A DNA stretch of 45,255 bases from a virus, in the IMG/VR virus record IMGVR_UViG_3300033183_000691, positions 1 to 45,255 of that record; one strand, given 5' to 3'. Positions within the stretch are counted from its first letter, which is position 1. Every line of letters begins with the position of its first letter. Made by a program: the position numbers and the translations under genes. This document shows, in pieces, positions 17,263-45,255 of the stretch. The notes under the pieces were generated by a model. The model was not told where the DNA came from. It was given only the letters and a program-made list of their open reading frames with translations, and searched no databases.

Positions 17263-18495
17263 ATGGACGTCGTCGACCTGCCACTCGAGCAGATCATTCC
17301 CTATGCGCGCAACCCGCGCCGCAATGAGCAGGCGATCGCAACGGTCGCGGCCTCGATCCAGGAGTTCGGCTGGCGTCAACCTATCGTGGTGGACGAGGCG
17401 ATGGTGGTACTCGCCGGGCACACGCGGTTGGAAGCTGCGCGCAAGCTCGGACTCAAGACCGCGCCGGTTCATGTCGCCAAGGGGCTGACGGTCAGCCAAG
17501 CGCGCGCCTTCCGGATCATGGACAACCGCTCCAGTGAGAACGCGGAATGGGACAAGGACCTCTTGAACCTCGAACTGGCGGACCTGCTGGAGGCGGATTT
17601 CGACCTCGGGCTGACCGGCTTCACCGACGACGAACTGAATGCGCTGATGTCGAGCCTTGAGGAAGGCAACGGTCCGCAAGATGGCGAGGACGATATTCCT
17701 GAAACTCCCGAGGATCCGATCAGCCGCCCAGGCGATTTGTGGATCTTGGGAAACCATCGATTACTTTGCGGCGACAGTACGGTCGCCACGGATGTCGAGA
17801 GAGTGCTCAACGGCGTAAAGCCGCTATTGCTTGTCAGCGATCCACCATACGGTGTGGAATATGATCCAGGTTGGCGCAACCAGGCGGGGGCGGCGAAGAC
17901 CAAGCGCACTGGCAAGGTGTTGAACGACGATCGCGCGGATTGGCGCGAGGCCTGGGCCCTGTTCCCCGGCGATGTCGCCTACGTCTGGCATGGCGCGCTG
18001 CACGCTGCGACCGTGGCCGAAAGCCTCGAGGTCGCGGGCTTCACCATCCGGTCTCAGATCATCTGGGCCAAAGACAGACTGGTTCTGAGCCGGGGCGATT
18101 ATCACTGGCAGCACGAGCCCGCCTGGTATGCCGTGCGCAAATCCGGCAAGGGCCACTGGGCGGGCGACCGCAAGCAGACCACGCTTTGGCAGATTGCCAA
18201 CAAGGATCAGGACGAGAAGACCGTGCATGGCACGCAGAAGCCCGTGGAATGCATGCGCCGGCCGATCCTGAACAACTCGAGCCCGGGTCAGGCGGTCTAC
18301 GAGCCTTTCATGGGATCGGGGACGACGCTGATCGCAGCCGAGACGACTGGACGGGTCTGTTACGGCATCGAGTTGAACCCGACCTACGTCGATGTGACCG
18401 TCCAGCGTTGGCAGAAGTTCACAGGGAAACAGGCCATTCTGGACGGAGGCGATACGACCTTTGATACTCTTAGGGCGGAGCGTGTGTCCGCATGA
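17263..18495 (+). CDS. ParB-domain / DNA methyltransferase fusion
   Basis: 410 aa. The N-terminal 110 residues form a ParB/Srx-like domain (NPRRNEQAI, then VLAGHTRLEAARKLG). The C-terminal part is a beta-group N6-adenine/N4-cytosine DNA methyltransferase with catalytic DPPY (193-196) before the SAM-binding FMGSGTT (349-355). An acidic linker joins them (EDDIPETPEDP). No cognate restriction enzyme is adjacent, so it is probably an orphan phage methyltransferase that protects or marks phage DNA. The ATG is preceded by a repeat-rich region rather than a clear ribosome site. Confidence 0.92.
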   Translation: MDVVDLPLEQIIPYARNPRRNEQAIATVAASIQEFGWRQPIVVDEAMVVLAGHTRLEAARKLGLKTAPVHVAKGLTVSQARAFRIMDNRSSENAEWDKDLLNLELADLLEADFDLGLTGFTDDELNALMSSLEEGNGPQDGEDDIPETPEDPISRPGDLWILGNHRLLCGDSTVATDVERVLNGVKPLLLVSDPPYGVEYDPGWRNQAGAAKTKRTGKVLNDDRADWREAWALFPGDVAYVWHGALHAATVAESLEVAGFTIRSQIIWAKDRLVLSRGDYHWQHEPAWYAVRKSGKGHWAGDRKQTTLWQIANKDQDEKTVHGTQKPVECMRRPILNNSSPGQAVYEPFMGSGTTLIAAETTGRVCYGIELNPTYVDVTVQRWQKFTGKQAILDGGDTTFDTLRAERVSA

Positions 18496-34012: not shown

Positions 34013-36559
34013 ATGCCCTTCATCGTGACAGCCGTCACCGCGATCGCGGGGGCGATCAGCGGCGTATTGGCTGCAGGCGGCATTGGCGCGGCCCTTCTGC
34101 GGATCGGCGGCACGCTTCTGCTGTCCTATGCGGCGCAGGCATTGATGCCAAAACCGCAGACCACGATGCAGCCGCGGACGGTGACGATCCGCGAGCCCGT
34201 CGTGCCGCGCGACCTCGTCTATGGCCGTACGCGCAAGGGCGGGGTCATCGTCTTCCTGCACTCCTCGGGGTCGGATAACAAATACCTCGACCTGGTGATC
34301 GTGCTGGCCACGCATCGGGTCAAATCGATCGGAGCCATCTATTTTGAGGGCGAAGTGGCTGTGAATGCCGCTGGGGTCGCGCAGGGCCGATGGGCCGGAA
34401 AGGTCGTCGTCGAGAAGAAACTCGGCGCCGCCAACCAGACCGCCTTCGCGGGCCTGAAAGCTGCGCTTCCCGACAAATGGACCGAGAACCATCGGCTACG
34501 GGGCTGTGCCGCAATCCGGCTGCGGCTAACCTATGACCAGGATGCCTTCCCGGGCGGGATCCCGAACATCACGGTCGATCTTGAGGGCAAGGACGACATC
34601 TGGGATCCGCGGACCCAAACCGCAGGCTATTCGGAAAACCCCGCCCTCTGCCTGGCCGATTATATGGCCAATTCGACCTGGGGCATCGGCGCGCGCATTG
34701 GAGAGCCCGACGGGATCGACGAGATGTCCCTCGTTGAGGCCGCGAACATCTGTGACGAGGCTGTTCCGCTTGCAGGCGGTGGATCCGAGCCGCGTTACGC
34801 CTGCAACGGGGTGATCACCCTCTCTGAGGTCCCGAAGACGATCATCGAGGGGATGCTGTCGAGCTTCGCAGGCCGCTGCGCCTTCTCGAGCGGGTCCTGG
34901 CGCATTCATGCTGGGGCCTGGCGTGCGCCCGATGTGGCGCTGACCCCGGACCATGTGCGCGAGGGCGGGCTGACGCTCGCCACGCGCGTGACGATGTCAT
35001 CGAACTTCAACGGCGTACGTGGGCAGTTCGTCAGCCCCGAGAACGACTGGCAGCCAGATGACTTTCCAGCCTATGCCTCGGATGTTTACCTCGCTGAGGA
35101 CGGTGGTGAGCGGAAATGGCGCGACATCTCGCTGCCCTTCACGATCTCCGCGTCAATGGCGCAGCGGCTCGCGAAAATCGAGCTCGAGCGCGCGCGTCGG
35201 CAGATGACGGTACGGTTGTCGGGGAAACTGTCTGCCTGGGCCGCCACCGTCGGCGATGTGGTGACACTCTCCTATGCCCGTTGGGGCTTTGCTGCCAAAC
35301 CCTTCGAGGTGCACGGGGTCAGCCTTGACCTAACAGCCTCGGGAGATGGCGCACTCCTGCTGCCAGAACTCGTTCTGCGCGAGACATCGCCCTTGATCTA
35401 TGACTGGTCGGCCTCTGAGCAGCAGATCTACGCAGCTGCCCCACGCACGGCTCTGCCCAACGCCTATGACATCCCGGCACCCGGCGCGCCGCAGGTCACC
35501 GAGGACCTCTACATCACGCGGGATGGGGGTGGGCTGAAGGTGCTCGCGAAAATCAGTTGGGAGGCGGCACCCTCGGGATTTGTTGCGGCCTATCAGCTGC
35601 AAGGCAAACTGACGGGCGCGGCCGAGTGGATCGACTATGGCCGCACCGATGGCACCGCGCTTGAAATCCGCGACATCGCGCCGGGGGATTGGGCCTTCCG
35701 GGTCAAAGCCATCTCGGTTCTGGGCGTTTCCTCGATCTGGCAGGAGACAGCGGTTGAAATCCTCGGCCTGACCGCGCCTCCGGCGCAGCTTGAGAATGTG
35801 ACGCTGCAAACGGCAGGTGGCCTTGCGATCCTCAAATGGACACGCTCGGCCGATCCCGACGTGCGGGTCGGTGGCAACATCGTGATCCGCCATTCCAAGG
35901 AAGCGACGGCCACCTGGGCCGACAGCTATTCTATGGACCGGGTCTCGGGCGGCGAAGCCATCGCCGTCGTGCCTTTGAAACCCGGGACCTACCTGGTACG
36001 CGCCGAGGACAGCGGCGGCCGCGCCGGCCCTGAAACCCGCGTCTCGACCAAGGGCGCGCAGGTGCTGGCCTTCTCGACCTTGGACTTCCTGCAGGCCGAT
36101 CCCGGCTTCTTCGGAGCGAAATCAGGGCTACAGGTCACGGGTTCGAACCTGACCCTCGCCACGGCAACCGAAAATGGAGTGACACAGGTCAACACGATGG
36201 AGGGGCAATACGCCTTTGCCGCCGGGCTCGATCTCGGAGCTGTGAAACGCGTGCGGCTCCGCTCGGAAATCGGCGTTGCCGCCCTGGCGCTCAATGACCG
36301 GATCGACACGCGGACCGCACTCATGGACACATGGGCCGACTTCGACGGCTCGGCCGGCGCAGAAATCGATGTGCTCTTCGAGATCCGCGAAACCGATGAC
36401 GATCCGGCCGCATCGCCGAACTGGGGTCCCTGGGGTCGCCTCGACAACCACGAAATCGAAGCCCGCGCGGTAGAGGCGCGGGCGCATCTAACGACGAAGG
36501 ATGCGTCCTACACGCCCATCGTCAGCCAATTGCGGCTTTATGCCGACGAGGTGGCCTAA
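34013..36559 (+). CDS. Tail tip / host-specificity protein (gpJ-like)
   Basis: 848 aa. N-terminal membrane-like Ala/Gly segment (AVTAIAGAISGVLAAGGIGAALL) followed by REPVVPRDLVYGRTRKGGVIVFLHSSG, typical of TipJ. The middle contains GIGARIGEPDG and phage-tail hub domains; fibronectin III-like repeats are seen at about 490-680 (APGAPQVTEDL, LTAPPAQLENVTL). The C-terminus is a beta domain ending in PIVSQLRLYADEVA. It forms the central tip and binds receptor or fibres. Ends overlapping the fibre gene. Confidence 0.93.
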   Translation: MPFIVTAVTAIAGAISGVLAAGGIGAALLRIGGTLLLSYAAQALMPKPQTTMQPRTVTIREPVVPRDLVYGRTRKGGVIVFLHSSGSDNKYLDLVIVLATHRVKSIGAIYFEGEVAVNAAGVAQGRWAGKVVVEKKLGAANQTAFAGLKAALPDKWTENHRLRGCAAIRLRLTYDQDAFPGGIPNITVDLEGKDDIWDPRTQTAGYSENPALCLADYMANSTWGIGARIGEPDGIDEMSLVEAANICDEAVPLAGGGSEPRYACNGVITLSEVPKTIIEGMLSSFAGRCAFSSGSWRIHAGAWRAPDVALTPDHVREGGLTLATRVTMSSNFNGVRGQFVSPENDWQPDDFPAYASDVYLAEDGGERKWRDISLPFTISASMAQRLAKIELERARRQMTVRLSGKLSAWAATVGDVVTLSYARWGFAAKPFEVHGVSLDLTASGDGALLLPELVLRETSPLIYDWSASEQQIYAAAPRTALPNAYDIPAPGAPQVTEDLYITRDGGGLKVLAKISWEAAPSGFVAAYQLQGKLTGAAEWIDYGRTDGTALEIRDIAPGDWAFRVKAISVLGVSSIWQETAVEILGLTAPPAQLENVTLQTAGGLAILKWTRSADPDVRVGGNIVIRHSKEATATWADSYSMDRVSGGEAIAVVPLKPGTYLVRAEDSGGRAGPETRVSTKGAQVLAFSTLDFLQADPGFFGAKSGLQVTGSNLTLATATENGVTQVNTMEGQYAFAAGLDLGAVKRVRLRSEIGVAALALNDRIDTRTALMDTWADFDGSAGAEIDVLFEIRETDDDPAASPNWGPWGRLDNHEIEARAVEARAHLTTKDASYTPIVSQLRLYADEVA

Positions 36560-37215
36560 TGGCGCAGACATCCAGCTTCGTGATCGCGAACGACGCAGGC
36601 GCGGCCGTTCGAGCGCGCATCAATGAGGTGATCGCCGCATTGCAATCGACGAGTGCCGGGTCCTCGGCACCAACAGCCACGGTTGCCGGTATGCTTTGGG
36701 TCGATACCTCGGTATCGCCGCCGGTGCTGCGCCGACGAAACGCCACCAACACAGGCTGGGACGCACTGCTGGATGCGGCAGGCAATCTGGCGGGACTTGC
36801 CAACACGGCCGTGGCGCGCACAAACCTTGGCCTCGGAACAATGGCCACGAAATCCGCAGCCGACTACGACGCGGCGATCGCGGCAAAAGCGGCACTGTCC
36901 GGAGCAACGTTCACTGGCGTCGTGACCGCCCCGAACTTTGTTTCCTCATCCGATGCCCGATTAAAGTCCGATGTCGAGACCATCGCCAATGCGCTGGCTC
37001 TTGTCTCCGCCCTGCGCGGGGTGCGCTTCAGCATGGGTGGCAGCCGCCAGATCGGCGTCATCGCCCAAGAAGTGGAGCCGGTCCTGCCCGAAGTCGTGCG
37101 GGTGGGCGAGGCAGGCCAACTCTCGGTCGCTTACGGCAATATCACTGGCCTTCTGATCGAGGCCGTCAAGGAACTGGCCGCCCGGGTGGCGGCGCTTGAG
37201 GAGGCGCGCCCATGA
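36559..37215 (+). CDS. Short tail fibre with S74 intramolecular chaperone
   Basis: 218 aa. The N-terminus looks like a fibre attachment region (ASSFVIAND-type start and STSAGSSAPTATVAGMLWVDTS). The C-terminal 85 residues form an endosialidase-type S74 chaperone: [13 protein letters not shown], then QIGVIAQEVEPVLPEVV and a coiled-coil end. S74 domains trimerise the fibre and cleave themselves off before the conserved Ser. It overlaps both neighbours. Confidence 0.9.
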   Translation: MAQTSSFVIANDAGAAVRARINEVIAALQSTSAGSSAPTATVAGMLWVDTSVSPPVLRRRNATNTGWDALLDAAGNLAGLANTAVARTNLGLGTMATKSAADYDAAIAAKAALSGATFTGVVTAPNFVSSSDARLKSDVETIANALALVSALRGVRFSMGGSRQIGVIAQEVEPVLPEVVRVGEAGQLSVAYGNITGLLIEAVKELAARVAALEEARP

Positions 37216-39273: not shown

Positions 39274-39476
39274 GCGAAGTGATCCAGCAAACAGGCCCGA
39301 TTATCATCACCGCGCCAATCAAGGTGCGCGTCGTCACTGGACCCTTCCGCATACGCCTCGGCGGCCAGCCAGGACCGCAAGGGGCGACAGGCCCCCAAGG
39401 CGACAAGGGCGATCAAGGTGATCCGGGCATCACGATCCTGCCCACCGACGCCCCCATCAATGGAGGATTTTTCTGA
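39270..39476 (+). CDS. Small collagen-like fibre protein, 68 aa
   Basis: An N-terminal beta hairpin (PIIITAPIKVRVVTGPFRIRL) is followed by about seven Gly-X-Y triplets (GQPGPQGATGPQGDKGDQGD) and ends GGFF. Such short collagen stems usually join fibre subunits as trimers. The ending TNGGFF-type motif is shared with fibre proteins downstream (GGTF). Confidence 0.8.
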   Translation: MSEVIQQTGPIIITAPIKVRVVTGPFRIRLGGQPGPQGATGPQGDKGDQGDPGITILPTDAPINGGFF

Positions 39477-40459
39477 TGGCCAATAACATCCAGCTCAAAC
39501 GCCGCGTCTCGGGCGTGGCAGGTGCTCCTGCAGCGCTTAAGTCCGGCGAACTGGCGCATAACGAAGTCGACAACACGGTCTATGTCGGCAAGGGCGACGA
39601 CGGCAGCGGCACTGCAACCTCCATTGTCCCCGTAGCAGGGAGTGGCAGTTTTCTGGCGCTGGTGGGCACGCAGACAGTTGGTGGGGCCAAAACCTTCTCT
39701 CTCGTGCCAAAATCTGGACAAGATGCCAGCAGCGGGACCGATCTTGTTCGCAAGTCGCAGGTCGACAGTCTGCTATCAGCGAAAGCGCCCTTGGCGTCAC
39801 CCACCTTCACGGGATCGCCCACGGCGCCGACGGCGGTCGCGGGCACGGACTCGACACAGATTGCAACGACGGCCTTCGTCAATCAGGCCATTGCCGGCTT
39901 TGGCGCCGGCGACATGGCAAAATCCACCTATGACACCGACAATGATGGCAAGGTGGATGCCGCGGAAGTTGCGGATGCCGCTCCCTGGGCCGGGATCACG
40001 GGCAAACCCACAAGCTTCACGCCCTCAACCCACAGCCATTCGATTGCGCAAGTTACGGGGCTCCAGACGGCGCTGGATGCAAAGGCGCCTCTTGCATCGC
40101 CTGCGCTGACAGGATCGCCGACCGCCCCCACTGCAACGGCCGGCACGAACACGACGCAGATCGCGACCACAGCCTTTGTTGCCTCCGCCATTGGTGCGCT
40201 TATCGATGCCGCTCCCGGCGCCATGGACACGCTGAACGAGTTGGCCGCAGCGCTTGGCGATGATCCGAACTTTGCAACGACCGTCACCAACGCGCTTGCA
40301 GGCAAGCTCTCTGCCGCATCGAACCTGTCCGACCTCCCCAATAAAGCAACGTCGCGGTCGAACCTCGGACTGGGGTCCATGGCCACGCAAGCCTCCAGCA
40401 ATGTCGCGATCACCGGTGGGTCGATCAACGGGATCACCCTTGACGGTGGGACCTTCTGA
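39476..40459 (+). CDS. Tail fibre protein with repeat modules
   Basis: 327 aa. N-terminal adhesion-like start ([31 protein letters not shown]) is shared with the next gene. Two internal copies of the fibre repeat [19 protein letters not shown] followed by TQIATTAFV lie at about residues 103-140 and 203-240, with a [11 protein letters not shown] module between them. Ends in the strand-rich [11 protein letters not shown]. Probably a long trimeric side fibre. Confidence 0.88.
39785..40195 (+). repeat. Internal direct repeat of the tail-fibre gene
   Basis: Two copies of about 110 bases, near 39785-39895 and 40085-40195, encode the PLASP...TTAFV fibre module. The copies differ at several synonymous and some non-synonymous positions, so they are diverged tandem modules rather than a recent duplication. 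Confidence 0.7.
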
Positions 40460-40461
40460 TC

Positions 40462-41417
<956 letters not shown>

Positions 41418-41421
<4 letters not shown>

Positions 41422-42326
41422 TTGAGACGGGACTTCATGTCATCCACAATACGGGATCGCGGCTCCATTATGCCGTTGATGTCCAGGACACATATGCAGG
41501 GATTGCTGTCTTTGAGCCCTGTGAAGAGGGGTCTGTCATGGGCCTTGGGGACGACGCAGTTCTATGGGCAGATATCTTGGCCATGCTTGAAGAGCCGTTC
41601 GACATGGCGAACTCTGCGGGATTTGTCGATATGCGCGGCAATGGCCTCTTTGTCCCTGACATTCCAGGAGTAACGCATGGCGCCATATACCGTGGACGGT
41701 CTTACGTTTTTCTTGACGGAATGATCGGCCACGATGAAATCACCGATTATGCTTTGATCGATATCATGACGAATGAGGCAGGCTTTCCACTGCCTTGGCG
41801 CAATCGCTTTGCGCAATCGGCACGCGAGAAGGTAGATTATTCCTTTCGACACCGGGCGCGAACGCAGTGCTCCAATGCGCTTGTTATTTTTATGCCTATC
41901 GCGGGGGCTCTCACAACCGCCCGTGTCGAGCTTCTTTGTGATCTAGACCCCATTCTTTTAAACGGCACGACGATTGCAGGCAGGATTGATGACGCGACGA
42001 TTCCCAATGACGGGCAGTGGTTCAAACAGTTTTATTTCCACGCAGATACAACGCTAGAGACTTTGACGGTTGCCGCAGGTGCGCGTGTTGACGTGCCAAT
42101 AGCGCTGCGTTGGAACAAGGACGACACGCCATGCGCCCATGCGTTGAAGCTCAAACTCGAAAGTGATGCGGGATATCTGCCCAAGCGCCGGTTGATCACC
42201 GATGAAAACGGATTGGGCAGTTTTGCGATCGAGGCGCAAGGATTGAACTCAGGGGATCATATCGCAGTCAAGATCAACACAGAGCATTACACGGCCATAG
42301 GAAAAATCATTTTGGAGGTTGTGTGA
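41418..42326 (+). CDS. Unknown protein, 302 aa, first of the fibre-modification cassette
   Basis: Not recognised. It begins with GTG 41418, overlapping the fibre stop and preceded by AAAGGA. The N-terminal half is mixed, with aromatic and acidic residues ([43 protein letters not shown]); the C-terminal half looks like a beta sandwich ([36 protein letters not shown]). No signal peptide. Composition is lower in GC than the fibre genes. It may be a fibre-associated structural protein, adhesin or scaffold for the enzymes downstream; no catalytic motif is visible. Confidence 0.65.
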
Positions 42327-43066
42327 TGGACCTTCAAACAACGACGGAAATCCAGCTGATTTATCCTGCTTTTGTCATGCACAAGCATTGGGAGATGCCA
42401 GAGGGCTTTAACGATCGCCTGCATGCGCTGGCCGCCGAGGACGCTGAGGCAAATCGCATTCAAGACGCAGGCAACGGGAGAAATGTTGGGGATCAGACCA
42501 ATCACCTCGGCCATCTGCGCCATAATTTTCTGATGGATCGACGCGACCCCGTGATTGCAGTGCTGGCGCAAATGGTGGCAGCTGCCGTACGTGAATATTT
42601 GCAGATCGCTTATGGCTATGAACACACAGGCGAGATTGCCATGATGTCGGATACGTTCTGGCAACGTCGCTCAAAGCGCGAACACATTGGGATTAACGCG
42701 CATACCCATATCCAGACCGATATTGTCTGCACCTATTATCCGCGCGTGGTGTTGGATGCCGATTGTCCTCAGACCTCGCTTCATCGCGGGGCTGTGCGCT
42801 TTTACGATCCTGCAAATGTTGGCAAGCGGCTTTGGCCTTGCAACAATCCAGATGCCTATGTGGGCGGCTGGTACGCGGTTGAGCCCGAAACGGGCTCGAT
42901 GCTCGTCTTTGAAGGGCATGTGCCCCATGACAGCACGTATTTTGAGGGCGAGGAGCGGATGTGCATTCCGGTTCTCTGTGCGCTCGAGCTTCCCAATTCC
43001 CACTGCAAGGCAGGTCTCGCCGAGATTTTAGCCCATCAAGCGCAAGGAGGCAGCCATGGCCTATAA
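42326..43066 (+). CDS. Putative Fe(II)/2-oxoglutarate-dependent oxygenase
   Basis: 246 aa from ATG 42326 with GGAGG seven bases upstream. The pattern matches 2OG-FeII_Oxy_5-like proteins: NAHTHIQTDIVCTYYP (metal-ligand candidates His126/His128), AVRFYDPANVG, and GSMLVFEGHVPHDSTYFEGEERMCIP (distal His198 or His201, 2OG-binding Arg211). Such enzymes hydroxylate or otherwise oxidise C-H bonds, often on protein side chains. It overlaps the Asn-Cys repeat gene by 11 bases, suggesting that product as a substrate. The exact ligand set is less clear than in the second oxygenase. Confidence 0.72.
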   Translation: MDLQTTTEIQLIYPAFVMHKHWEMPEGFNDRLHALAAEDAEANRIQDAGNGRNVGDQTNHLGHLRHNFLMDRRDPVIAVLAQMVAAAVREYLQIAYGYEHTGEIAMMSDTFWQRRSKREHIGINAHTHIQTDIVCTYYPRVVLDADCPQTSLHRGAVRFYDPANVGKRLWPCNNPDAYVGGWYAVEPETGSMLVFEGHVPHDSTYFEGEERMCIPVLCALELPNSHCKAGLAEILAHQAQGGSHGL

Positions 43067-43391
43067 GGTCGGAACCACTATTGTGATCGACGACAGCGGA
43101 AATGTGGATTGGTCGCGGATTTCTAATAAGCCTGCGATTGGGGCAGGCGATATTACGTCTGTCGGGATCTCCAATGGGACGCCGGCAAGCGGTGTGAAAT
43201 TTGTGCGAAATGACTATCAGATCACCACGTATTCCGTATTCGCAGCAAATCGAACGACAACGGGCAACTGTAATTGCACGGCAAATTGCTATGTCGAAAG
43301 CCTCTCGGGAGGAGGGACATCGGGAGCGGTCACGATCACCGCAAACCGGAAGTACTTTAATTGCAATTGCAACTGTAATTGTCGGTGCTGA
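43056..43391 (+). CDS. Fibre-like protein with C-terminal Asn-Cys repeats (candidate modified substrate)
   Basis: 111 aa; AAGGAGG lies just before the ATG. The N-terminal half looks like a tail-fibre module (TTIVIDDSGNVDWSRISNKP; compare WAGITGKP in the 39476 fibre). The C-terminal half has two Cys clusters: GNCNCTANCY (Cys72, 74, 78) and YFNCNCNCNCRC (Cys103, 105, 107, 109, 111), with Asn before seven of the eight Cys. Asn and Cys codons are mixed (AAT/AAC, TGC/TGT), so this is not a simple DNA slippage repeat. Neighbouring oxygenases and a radical SAM-SPASM enzyme make it a likely maturation substrate; a metal-binding or disulphide-rich tip is the alternative. Confidence 0.8.
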   Translation: MAYKVGTTIVIDDSGNVDWSRISNKPAIGAGDITSVGISNGTPASGVKFVRNDYQITTYSVFAANRTTTGNCNCTANCYVESLSGGGTSGAVTITANRKYFNCNCNCNCRC

Positions 43392-43393
43392 GG

Positions 43394-44026
43394 ATGGAGG
43401 TTCGCAGCACGACGCTTGAGCTCTGGCCAACAAGGATCAACTTCTTTGAAACCCCGCCTGACTGGGCAGTGAACCGGCGTCTGGCAGATGAGGCCATTGC
43501 GCGGGTAGGGGGTGTGGATGAGAAGATACCCGGCAGCGCCGCAAAGCGGCGGGTTCGGGGCATTTTGGACGACAGCACCGAAGGCCAGACGCTCAAAGCG
43601 CATCTCTTTGCCTGCGCGCGCGCCGTCCTCGGGCCTTGGTCCAAGTATCTCGATCCCGACCATTGCGAAAACCGTGCCCTCGTCATCGAGCCCGGTGGTT
43701 TCATCTCAACCCACAAGGACAGTCGCGAGGGGGACCTGACCTGCGTGCACTTCTTGACTGGCGGTGGATCAGGTCACCCGGTAAACAGCGTGGGCACGCC
43801 GCGCTTCGTGATCGAGGACCCATCGCGCTACTTCGATGAGGGGCGGCTGCCTTATGAGAGCCGCCATGGCTACTCGGTCAACCCGCGGCCGGGGCTCTCG
43901 GTCTTCTTCCCCTCTCATATTCCCCATAACCAGCACCCCTATGAGGGGAGCGCACCCCATGTGCAGGTGGTCGCGAACTTCCGCGTCGACCTGCCCGTGG
44001 CGATCGAAGAAAGGCTGTTCGACTGA
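43394..44026 (+). CDS. Fe(II)/2-oxoglutarate-dependent oxygenase (HxD type)
   Basis: 210 aa from ATG 43394; a TTG at 43379 is possible. GGFISTHKDS carries the HxD iron ligands (His107, Asp109); SVFFPSHIPHNQHPY carries the distal His (probably His178) and NFRVDLP the 2OG-binding Arg197. The fold is the double-stranded beta-helix of P4H/AspH-type protein hydroxylases. It starts two bases after the Asn-Cys repeat gene and overlaps the radical SAM gene by one base, so all three are coupled. It likely hydroxylates residues (Asn is a reasonable guess) in the fibre-like protein. Confidence 0.82.
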   Translation: MEVRSTTLELWPTRINFFETPPDWAVNRRLADEAIARVGGVDEKIPGSAAKRRVRGILDDSTEGQTLKAHLFACARAVLGPWSKYLDPDHCENRALVIEPGGFISTHKDSREGDLTCVHFLTGGGSGHPVNSVGTPRFVIEDPSRYFDEGRLPYESRHGYSVNPRPGLSVFFPSHIPHNQHPYEGSAPHVQVVANFRVDLPVAIEERLFD

Positions 44027-45255
44027 TGTGGTTTGATCTGACGCTGGAGGCGCGTGACGGCAGCCGCCATCACGTGCGCTACAACCCGCACACCTCCGAA
44101 TGCGAAGGGCTGCGACTGCCGGTCGAGTCGGGGATTTTTGCGCCGGTTGCCCGCGTGGCCAAAGACAAGCCCCTCGGAAAATCCCGTGCTCCCCGCATCC
44201 TGAAAATCCAACTCGGGCTCTCGTGCAACTATGCCTGCAGCTATTGCAACCAGGCCTTCCAGATTACGGATGCCACGGTCTCGAAACTGGCCGATGTCGA
44301 GCACTTCCTGACCCAGCTCGACGGCTGGATCACCGACGCGCCGGAGACGATCGAGCTCTGGGGTGGGGAGCCGTTTCTTTACTGGGCCAAAATCAAGCGG
44401 ATGATCCCCGCGCTGGCGGAGCGCTTCCCGGCGGCGCGCTTCTCGATCATCACCAACGGCTCGCTCCTCGACCGAGAAAAGCTCGACTTCATCGCGGCCC
44501 ACGATATCGCCATCACGATCTCGCATGACGGGCCCGGTCAGCATATGCGCGGGCCGGATCCGTTCGACGATCCTGTCAAGAGTCACTGGATCCAAACCCT
44601 GTTGGCTGAGCGTCCCGAAAAGACCGGTTTTAATGCGGTTCTGACGCGCCAGCATCACGACCTTCGGGCGCTCAAGGCATGGTTCGCCGAAAAAGTCGGG
44701 CCGGACATCTTCGTTGGGCTCGAGGGTGTCGTGAATGTCTATGACGCGGCGACCGCCATCGGAACGGGACGGTTTGAGCCCTCGGAGCTGAACAGCTTAA
44801 CGCGGTCGATCTTCGAGGCGCTGGCAGAGGACCCCAACGCCTTTGGCCTCGGCGAGCGCATCAACGAATTCTATTCTTCGATTCAGCGTCGGCGGCCCAT
44901 CGAAGCGCTTGGCCAAAAATGCGGGATGGACAGCCCCGACGCCATTGCCGTCGACCTGCGCGGGAACGTGATGACCTGTCAGAACACCGGGGCAAAGGGA
45001 GCGCACAAGATCGGTCATGTCGCCGAGTTTGACGCCATCGCACTCGATACCGCGACGCATTTTGCCTTCCGGAACGAATGCATGTCATGCCCTGTCGTTC
45101 AGCTCTGCAAAGGGTCCTGCATGTTCCTCGAGGGTGAGTTCTTCAAGCAGTCTTGTGCCAATGAGTTCGCCTTCAACATGGGAATCATGATGGCGGCGGT
45201 GTGGCATTTGACGGGGATGGTGGTGGTCAACGTAAATGCAGCCGTTTTGGCTTAG
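44026..45255 (+). CDS. Radical SAM / SPASM peptide-modifying enzyme
   Basis: 409 aa. The radical SAM cluster motif CNYACSYC gives Cys67, Cys71, Cys74; the SAM-binding GGEP is at 113-116 and SIITNGSLL follows. The C-terminal SPASM domain has all seven cysteines in order: Cys299, Cys318, then CMSCPVVQLCKGSC (352, 355, 361, 365: C-x2-C-x5-C-x3-C) and Cys377. Such enzymes hold two auxiliary 4Fe-4S clusters and modify peptides (thioether links, Cys oxidation to formylglycine, C-C bonds). No N-terminal RRE leader-binding domain is obvious. The C-terminal 25 residues are hydrophobic. Last gene of the fibre cassette; the stop is the final base triplet of the window. Confidence 0.92.
   Translation: MWFDLTLEARDGSRHHVRYNPHTSECEGLRLPVESGIFAPVARVAKDKPLGKSRAPRILKIQLGLSCNYACSYCNQAFQITDATVSKLADVEHFLTQLDGWITDAPETIELWGGEPFLYWAKIKRMIPALAERFPAARFSIITNGSLLDREKLDFIAAHDIAITISHDGPGQHMRGPDPFDDPVKSHWIQTLLAERPEKTGFNAVLTRQHHDLRALKAWFAEKVGPDIFVGLEGVVNVYDAATAIGTGRFEPSELNSLTRSIFEALAEDPNAFGLGERINEFYSSIQRRRPIEALGQKCGMDSPDAIAVDLRGNVMTCQNTGAKGAHKIGHVAEFDAIALDTATHFAFRNECMSCPVVQLCKGSCMFLEGEFFKQSCANEFAFNMGIMMAAVWHLTGMVVVNVNAAVLA

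Follow-up and report, generated by a model that had tools for sequence, protein, structure and literature searches.

A radical SAM/SPASM enzyme linked to alternating-cysteine tails of phage fibre-type proteins: a candidate system for covalent modification of fibre tips

Radical S-adenosylmethionine (SAM) enzymes are known to carry out peptide chemistry on small natural products and on a few enzyme subunits. PapB-type maturases act on a Cys-containing ribosomal substrate that is encoded beside the enzyme, a small precursor with CxxxD/E motifs. QhpD is a radical SAM/SPASM enzyme that modifies Cys residues of an enzyme subunit, not of a small peptide. In the His-Xaa-Ser system, which is not a phage system, the protein HxsA carries His-Xaa-Ser repeats and is linked to the paired radical SAM maturases HxsB and HxsC. 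In phages, the iron-needle tips of T4 gp37 and P2 gpV place alternating ligand residues at the tip of a fibre or spike, where they form HxH metal sites without a maturase. Here we describe a gene cassette at the end of the IMG/VR virus record IMGVR_UViG_3300033183_000691 (the window, which is the whole record of 45,255 nucleotides and may be a fragment), in which a small fibre-type protein with an alternating-Cys tail (111 amino acids, aa; 43056-43391, + strand) is encoded close to a radical SAM/SPASM enzyme (409 aa; 44026-45255, + strand).

Sequence comparison shows that tail and enzyme form one inherited module, which is carried on several unrelated scaffolds in tailed phages. We put at roughly 0.75 the probability that the exposed fibre tip is a covalent target of the enzyme, with thioether formation as the most likely reaction. 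Radical SAM/SPASM maturases with Cys-rich ribosomal substrates are known as a general kind of system, and within the literature that we searched, a maturase dedicated to phage fibre tips is new. The open PMC subset (closed journals and preprints being outside its scope) yielded no description of such a system, and passages of PMC10783043, PMC12710340, PMC9959647 and PMC9228384 do not describe the module.

Linkage of the tail and the enzyme

We scanned IMG/VR for DNA able to encode (Asn-Cys)4, blind to enzymes, and obtained at least 119 loci. A run was classed as C-terminal if it lay at most 15 residues from the end of an open reading frame (ORF) of at least 60 aa, which was the case in 89 of the 119 listed loci. 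Enzymes were called at E < 1e-5, with a profile built from the same loci to which it was applied. A same-strand enzyme within 6 kb accompanies 73 of the 89 C-terminal runs overall, 72 of the 76 with 1.5 kb stored downstream, 63 of the 64 with 3 kb and all 40 with at least 5 kb. In the locus map the enzyme lies mostly downstream of the tail gene, and the four loci that miss it at 1.5 kb have it elsewhere in the same record. The other 30 loci, in which the run is not C-terminal or its ORF was not found, comprise three near an enzyme (L013, L112 and L117), which are members bearing extra C-terminal sequence, and 27 without one nearby, among which L011, L085 and L115 seem to be members truncated at the end of the contig or stretch. 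Also among the 27 are L005, L083 and L086, in which the (NC)4 run lies inside a long ORF and the stored stretch has no such enzyme.

The reverse scan started from the best 80 of 153 enzyme relatives, and accepted as a tail at least three xC pairs in a same-strand neighbour, either at the C-terminus or ahead of a domain of known kind. Tails were found in 57 of the 59 loci with at least 4 kb upstream, and in 67 of the 80 overall. Of the two misses among the 59, L188 has ACACNCNC and L177 the short, degenerate ACDCANC; one positive outside the 59, L146, is probably a frame artefact. The chance level is low, with a run satisfying the C-terminal rule in 4 of 3455 opposite-strand ORFs, or 4 of the 80 loci.

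Two fibre bodies without their tails served as queries in a further search, in which a run was accepted anywhere in the ORF. This gave 158 loci with 103 distinct C-termini, 86 of them testable: 72 have both tail and enzyme, 12 have neither, one has only the tail and one only the enzyme (Fisher 1e-12, a value that ignores common descent). In the discordant pair, the tail-only locus (L457) has an enzyme in its record, and the enzyme-only locus (L429) ends in NCNCDRNCGC, a tail missed by the rule. The 12 proteins lacking both are partial relatives of the fibre bodies. Within the window's close family of 28 loci, tail, second oxygenase and enzyme occur together in 22; L336 and L344 have the tail in a stretch that stops short of the enzyme, the stretches of L337 and L346 break off within the gene, and L354 and L355, which have only residues 1-34 in common with the window protein, have neither tail nor enzyme.

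A preliminary description of the window had proposed that the SPASM enzyme is dedicated to the Cys-rich end of a fibre protein, that Fe/2-oxoglutarate (2OG) oxygenases take part, and that a co-occurrence search could serve as a check. Linkage in both directions and joint absence lend strong support to the core of this proposal. For C-terminal tails, we found neither the repeat protein widely without the enzyme nor the reverse. A part for the oxygenases is not supported as a general feature; a 2OG gene is optional overall, a relative being found in 13 of the 40 loci with at least 5 kb downstream (an accessory protein, described below, is found in 32). On these sequence grounds, the tail is very probably the substrate of the radical SAM/SPASM enzyme. 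The same linkage bears on an alternative that takes the tail for an unmodified metal-binding needle, the CxCxC strands of a trimer facing the axis and holding metal ions or Fe-S clusters while the enzyme acts elsewhere. The geometry of alternating residues suits such a needle, CxC repeats are good metal ligands, and the tip of the T4 long fibre is an HxH iron needle. However, this idea does not say why nearly every tail is accompanied by the enzyme, nor why the enzyme is missing where there is no tail, and we consider it very unlikely.

In cellular genomes, an (NC)4 scan limited to 8 kb per locus, and thus with less reach than the viral loci, gave at least 117 loci. The enzyme is missing from 115 of the 117 listed, and the other two have weak profile matches (4.9e-6 and 1.8e-9). 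One true cellular member was found, in a Rhodospirillales metagenome-assembled genome (L204), where a Hint-like start comes after the tail and the enzyme is ~650 bases away. Two of 385 genomes of the same class have the enzyme, and in both a tail gene is beside it; since one of the two is the L204 genome itself, and the class was picked because L204 held a tail, they amount to one independent case. Codon use also differs between the two sets. In 48 distinct 24-mers from phage tails, we counted a mean of 2.46 distinct hexamers out of 4, against 2.68 for a random codon draw, whereas the 82 cellular (NC)4 ORF matches have a mean of 1.24, with one repeated hexamer in 69 of 82. These values imply selection at the protein level for the phage tails, and simple repeats in most of the cellular matches. 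DNA slippage was rejected as the origin of the tail, because its synonymous codons are mixed.

A plasmid search gave no match at E 1e-30 or better. Among cultured phages, 25 records match the enzyme at 1e-5, three of them over at least 80% of its length (Achromobacter phages JWF, twice, and 2-1), with partial matches in Campylobacter, Erwinia and other phages; three further enzymes used as queries found the same three records or none. Phage 2-1 has both enzyme and tail, the tail gene being the second after the baseplate hub gene. Phage JWF has the enzyme, which one JWF record annotates as a sulfatase-maturating enzyme.

The alternating-cysteine tail and its scaffolds

The window's 111-aa protein, whose ATG is directly preceded by AAGGAGG, ends in the tail NCNCNCNCRC (43359-43388, + strand), which is written in mixed synonymous codons. 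Further upstream in the same protein, the internal motif NCNCTANC (43266-43289, + strand) can be read from the sequence, and some relatives have similar internal Cys/Asn motifs. We compared 126 dereplicated tails, which have at least four pairs by rule and are biased towards Asn, part of the loci having come from an Asn-Cys pattern. The number of xC pairs per tail is 4-10. Asn takes the first x position in 110 tails, and the 517 later x positions hold Asn (345), Ala (73), Asp (43), Arg (23), Gln (10), Tyr (9) and others (14). The fixed feature, as read from these tails, is a Cys at every second place, because tails found from the enzyme side, such as NCACACACAC in L166, vary x; Asn is dispensable, and often replaced by Ala, Asp, Arg or others. 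The Asn-Cys repeat named in the preliminary description is thus present in the window, but Asn is not essential, and it is alternating Cys that is conserved instead.

The bodies that carry these tails are diverse, with 125 of them falling into 13 single-linkage scaffold groups, seven of which are single sequences. Similarity to fibres is seen in L102, a relative that matches a PHROG tail fibre at 1.2e-46. NCBIfam gave nothing above cut-off for ten tail proteins, and no RiPP-precursor family (RiPP, ribosomally synthesized and post-translationally modified peptide) except that a collagen stretch weakly matched HxsA4 (0.006); Pfam gave a single weak Hint match for ten further proteins.

In some members, a domain follows the run. 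A Hint domain stands directly after it, above cut-off, in the fibre of Achromobacter phage 2-1 (P0001; 5.3e-12, 46.6 versus 32.1 bits) and in L150 (1.6e-8, 35.3 bits). Weaker Hint matches below cut-off follow the run in L112, L148, L149 and L188, with none detected in L182 or after the window's tail. In L085 the run is followed by an S74 domain (1.1e-6), and other relatives carry an unnamed domain there. Hint and S74 domains cut themselves off, and by analogy such self-cleavage would restore the tail as the C-terminus; the position of the Hint-like start after the tail suggests a self-cleavage that may expose the tail.

We also noted several variations on these proteins. A Cys tail or Cys-rich stretch followed by a Hint- or intein-like start occurs at L198:11721-13163 (Achromobacter phage 2-1), L150:4178-5359, L150:6049-7239, L112:2-847, L148:1784-2572, L188:4970-6361 and L326:11344-13356; L198 and L150:6049-7239 pass the Pfam cut-off for Hint. 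A different conserved stretch of up to ~175 aa, starting with SKI[IV]C (GSVIC in L115), follows the tail in L013, L115, L185-L187, L190 and L192-L197, and the three examples scanned with Pfam (L013, L115 and L186) gave no match. Three tandem tail genes share one radical SAM gene at L044:6205-7123, L059:4242-5179, L066:2021-2969, L097:7108-8279 and L114:3833-4713. In L008, L049 and L014, a different small tail protein has HTH[IL]F[FY]DDYST before the tail, with 2-4 ORFs matching the radical SAM profile alongside.

The enzyme and its candidate chemistry

The window's enzyme matches Radical_SAM (PF04055, 1.3e-9) and SPASM (TIGR04085, 2.6e-7), both above cut-off, and phrog_1802 (1.5e-52), for which the PHROGs label is just radical SAM domain-containing protein. 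Across 58 enzymes, including that of the window, C67, C71, C299, C318, C352, C355, C361, C365 and C377 are invariant, as is G313, and C74 is kept in at least 90%; C67, C71 and C74 make up the CxxxCxxC motif of the SAM cluster. The SPASM pattern is Cx9-15Gx4C...Cx2Cx5Cx3C...C. Its Cys residues being invariant across the 58 sequences, the set is full, and the window's enzyme has all seven SPASM cysteines.

An AlphaFold2 model of the enzyme (predicted local distance difference test, pLDDT, 95.8) is closest among solved structures to 5wgg (Z 23.5, root mean square deviation (rmsd) 4.0, 351 residues, 18% identity). The title of entries 5wgg/5why refers to thioether formation in sactipeptides, and the enzyme is CteB, the SCIFF thioether maturase. 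Other fold neighbours are ChlB (9gmc/9gm3; Z 22.1, rmsd 3.3, 326 residues), the anaerobic sulfatase-maturating enzyme (Z 21.6, rmsd 3.4, 316 residues), TigE (Z 18.8, rmsd 4.5, 348 residues) and the epimerase EpeE (Z 15.0, rmsd 4.8, 251 residues). The best NCBIfam profile is that of the PapB ranthipeptide maturase (NF047865; 2.7e-19, 69.6 bits versus a cut-off of 340), which is also the best for six of seven further phage enzymes scanned; the seventh, from L049, prefers a viperin family. The nif11 maturase is among the best profiles too, far below cut-off. The fold neighbour 5wgg, the PapB profile and the replacement of a catalytic Asp by Gln (see below) together favour thioether chemistry as the predicted activity, and both the 5wgg enzyme and PapB make thioethers. 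We would give even odds that the product is in fact a thioether.

The neighbours of the enzyme also bring two other products into consideration. The enzyme might oxidize tail Cys residues to formylglycine, and a reactive aldehyde tip might then bind host amines. The near fold of the sulfatase-maturating enzyme and the annotation in one JWF record speak for this. However, Gln319 (at least 90% conserved) stands after the second SPASM Cys, where the sulfatase-type enzyme has Asp (D277, its catalytic Asp), and formylglycine formation was rejected on this ground. The sulfatase-maturating profile moreover gives only 38.3 bits against a cut-off of 349, and CxPSR or CxAxR, the sites of such enzymes, is impossible inside the run, since a Cys recurs two places after each tail Cys. 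This product is therefore extremely improbable. Alternatively, the enzyme could invert alternate residues of the tail, giving D-amino acids, with the oxygenases hydroxylating it, so that the fibre tip would form a beta-helix like that of polytheonamide or gramicidin. The strict alternation of residues and the presence of EpeE among the structural neighbours fit this idea, and polytheonamide biosynthesis uses a radical SAM epimerase together with an Fe/2OG enzyme. Yet EpeE is clearly a weaker match than 5wgg (15.0 versus 23.5), a Cys at every second residue would be left unexplained, and 4-10 pairs are short for a membrane-spanning helix. We consider epimerization unlikely.

An extra radical SAM ORF lies beside the main one in L029, L113, L117, L120, L168, L181 and L184; for L184 and L117, its best match is PapB.

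The cassette, a proposed mechanism and comparison with known systems

The window reads as a tailed phage, which is probably temperate. It encodes a resolvase/recombinase-type integrase, primase, large terminase, portal, major head protein and tape measure, along with a J-like tail protein and S74 fibres. The cassette sits in the late tail operon, with tape measure, distal tail, J-like and S74 genes upstream. The last five genes, all on the + strand and overlapping or two bases apart, begin at the end of a gene for a collagen-like fibre with an S74 intramolecular chaperone (40462-41421, + strand; PF01391 3.8e-17, PF13884 3.2e-16, PHROG tail families). They encode the accessory protein (302 aa, GTG start; 41418-42326, + strand), a 2OG-Fe(II) oxygenase-like protein of the HxH...H type (42323-43066, + strand), the 111-aa protein as the proposed substrate, a second 2OG-Fe(II) oxygenase-like protein of the HxD...H type (43394-44026, + strand) and the radical SAM/SPASM enzyme as the proposed maturase, the last base of the window being that of its stop codon. 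From the collagen-like gene onwards, successive junctions are overlaps of 4, 4 and 11 bases, a gap of 2 bases and an overlap of 1 base. The five-gene cassette of the preliminary description is thus borne out in order, strand and overlaps, and both of its oxygenases are present, the HxD type being the second of the two and the first being HxH.

Homology searches say little about the other genes of such cassettes. For ten of them, Pfam named one; PHROGs gave a family of unknown function for three, and otherwise only fibre-type tail proteins or nothing. An AlphaFold2 model of the accessory protein (pLDDT 90.3) has a C-terminal immunoglobulin (Ig)-like domain at ~206-302, which resembles Ig-like domains of intimin and GH2 enzymes (Z ~10, rmsd ~2.5, ~90 residues); its first 200 residues have no fold match among the matches listed. 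Its best matches in a viral structure library are uncharacterised phage proteins, and a search against annotated phages gave no match. Between the accessory and radical SAM genes, frames of 278-314 aa with no Pfam match occur at L007:4003-4836, L087:10577-11518, L101:2421-3287 and L109:3973-4872, and three of the four end in KHP..M..DGD.

Both oxygenase-like proteins of the window match 2OG-FeII_Oxy_5 (PF13759) below the Pfam cut-off, the first at 3e-5 (and TIGR02466 at 5.5e-7, also below cut-off) and the second at 0.016 (with phrog_81 at 3.4e-6, a THKD motif and a distal His). The family alignment has the first His in 116 of 116 rows and the distal His in 115 of 115, and at the +2 position H in 77, D in 24, E in 11 and A in 4. 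Ala at the second iron-ligand position is typical of halogenases. By locus (n=81), HxH occurs alone in 43, HxH with HxD in 23, HxE alone in 10, HxA alone in 4 and HxE with HxH in one; HxD never occurs alone. 2OG enzymes need oxygen, and radical SAM enzymes are oxygen-sensitive. Two candidate targets of the oxygenases were rejected. One was Asn, the Asn fraction being 0.74 in 71 tails with a 2OG gene nearby and 0.69 in 55 without (p 0.75); the other was collagen, whose repeats showed no association with 2OG genes in 109 loci (p 0.36). A fatty-acid-desaturase-like protein (L186:12318-13037; PF00487, 3.4e-11) near one cassette is a further oxidative enzyme.

The collagen-like fibre next door in the window, and the fact that 2OG enzymes are classical modifiers of collagen, raise the possibility that the enzymes act on this or another cassette protein, or on a host molecule, with the tail as a passenger. 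The lack of association between collagen and 2OG genes and the sharing of the tail by 13 scaffold groups leave this idea with next to no weight.

In the modification of the tail that we favour, the enzyme would act after translation, cleaving SAM reductively at the CxxxCxxC cluster and abstracting hydrogens along the extended tail, so that Cys sulphurs could be joined to neighbouring residues as thioethers while the auxiliary SPASM clusters take up electrons. The tail would be exposed directly as a C-terminus or, in some relatives, after Hint or S74 self-cleavage. Delivery or chaperoning of the substrate is the probable task of the Ig-tailed accessory protein, and the optional 2OG oxygenases probably hydroxylate the tip or a neighbouring fibre. 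The outcome would be a rigid, protease-resistant and chemically unusual tip at the fibre end, with a likely role in host adsorption. In a bolder version, which we hold to be doubtful, the Asn/Ala/Asp-Cys string would be turned into a backbone with alternating D residues or into several rings bridged by a thioether ladder, partly hydroxylated. The virion would then end in a RiPP-like chemical warhead, or in a needle resembling a pore, with which it touches or penetrates the host envelope. This would be a kind of phage adsorption tip not known so far, with the cassette being exchanged among fibres.

Several points weigh against tail modification by thioether formation. IMG/VR contigs are not independent, 152 enzyme domains collapsing to 72 clusters at 80% identity. 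Linkage alone is no proof of a substrate, and we infer modification of the tail from it. ChlB and the anaerobic sulfatase-maturating enzyme are almost as near in fold as 5wgg. The tail lacks PapB-type CxxxD/E, the fourth residue after a Cys within the run being Cys. The window's 111-aa protein has no Pfam or NCBIfam match and an insignificant PHROG match (0.09), and a fibre role for the small proteins is suggested by their position in the genome and by PHROG tail-fibre matches of some relatives.

If tail modification is nevertheless correct, radical SAM chemistry appears to be dedicated to a structural part of the virus particle across many environmental phages, and the host-contacting tips of many phages could not be predicted or expressed from sequence alone. 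A large enzyme family with a simple, repeated substrate would also be on offer. The question is directly testable in isolated phages, namely Achromobacter phages 2-1 (enzyme and tail) and JWF (enzyme).

Away from the cassette, the window encodes an HNH nuclease joined to a HIT domain in a single protein (617-1735, - strand) and a ParB N-terminal domain fused to an N6/N4 DNA methylase (17263-18495, + strand). Its tail region has two S74-chaperone fibre genes, at 36559-37215 (+ strand) and the one next to the cassette, and another fibre-like gene at 39476-40459.

Among described systems, PapB-type maturases share with the phage enzyme CxxxCxxC and a full SPASM set and are its best NCBIfam match, but the score is far below the family cut-off, and the phage substrate would be the alternating-Cys terminus of a fibre-type protein rather than a small precursor with CxxxD/E motifs. 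CteB has the closest solved fold, yet the phage enzyme reaches only 33.4 of 425 bits for the SCIFF family (TIGR03974), and its N-terminal 57 residues, modelled as short strands without helices, show no evident winged-helix RiPP recognition element. The QhpD profile (quinohemoprotein amine dehydrogenase maturase, TIGR03906) matches at 2.7e-13, but at 49.4 versus 453 bits, and its substrate is a cellular, not a virion, protein. From the His-Xaa-Ser system, the HxsB (2.8e-12) and HxsC (3e-9) profiles match the phage enzyme, each below cut-off. RiPP biosynthesis in general, where modification of the tail would place the cassette, uses a ribosomal substrate encoded next to its modifying enzyme; in the phages a candidate substrate lies close to the enzyme gene and is linked to it in both directions.

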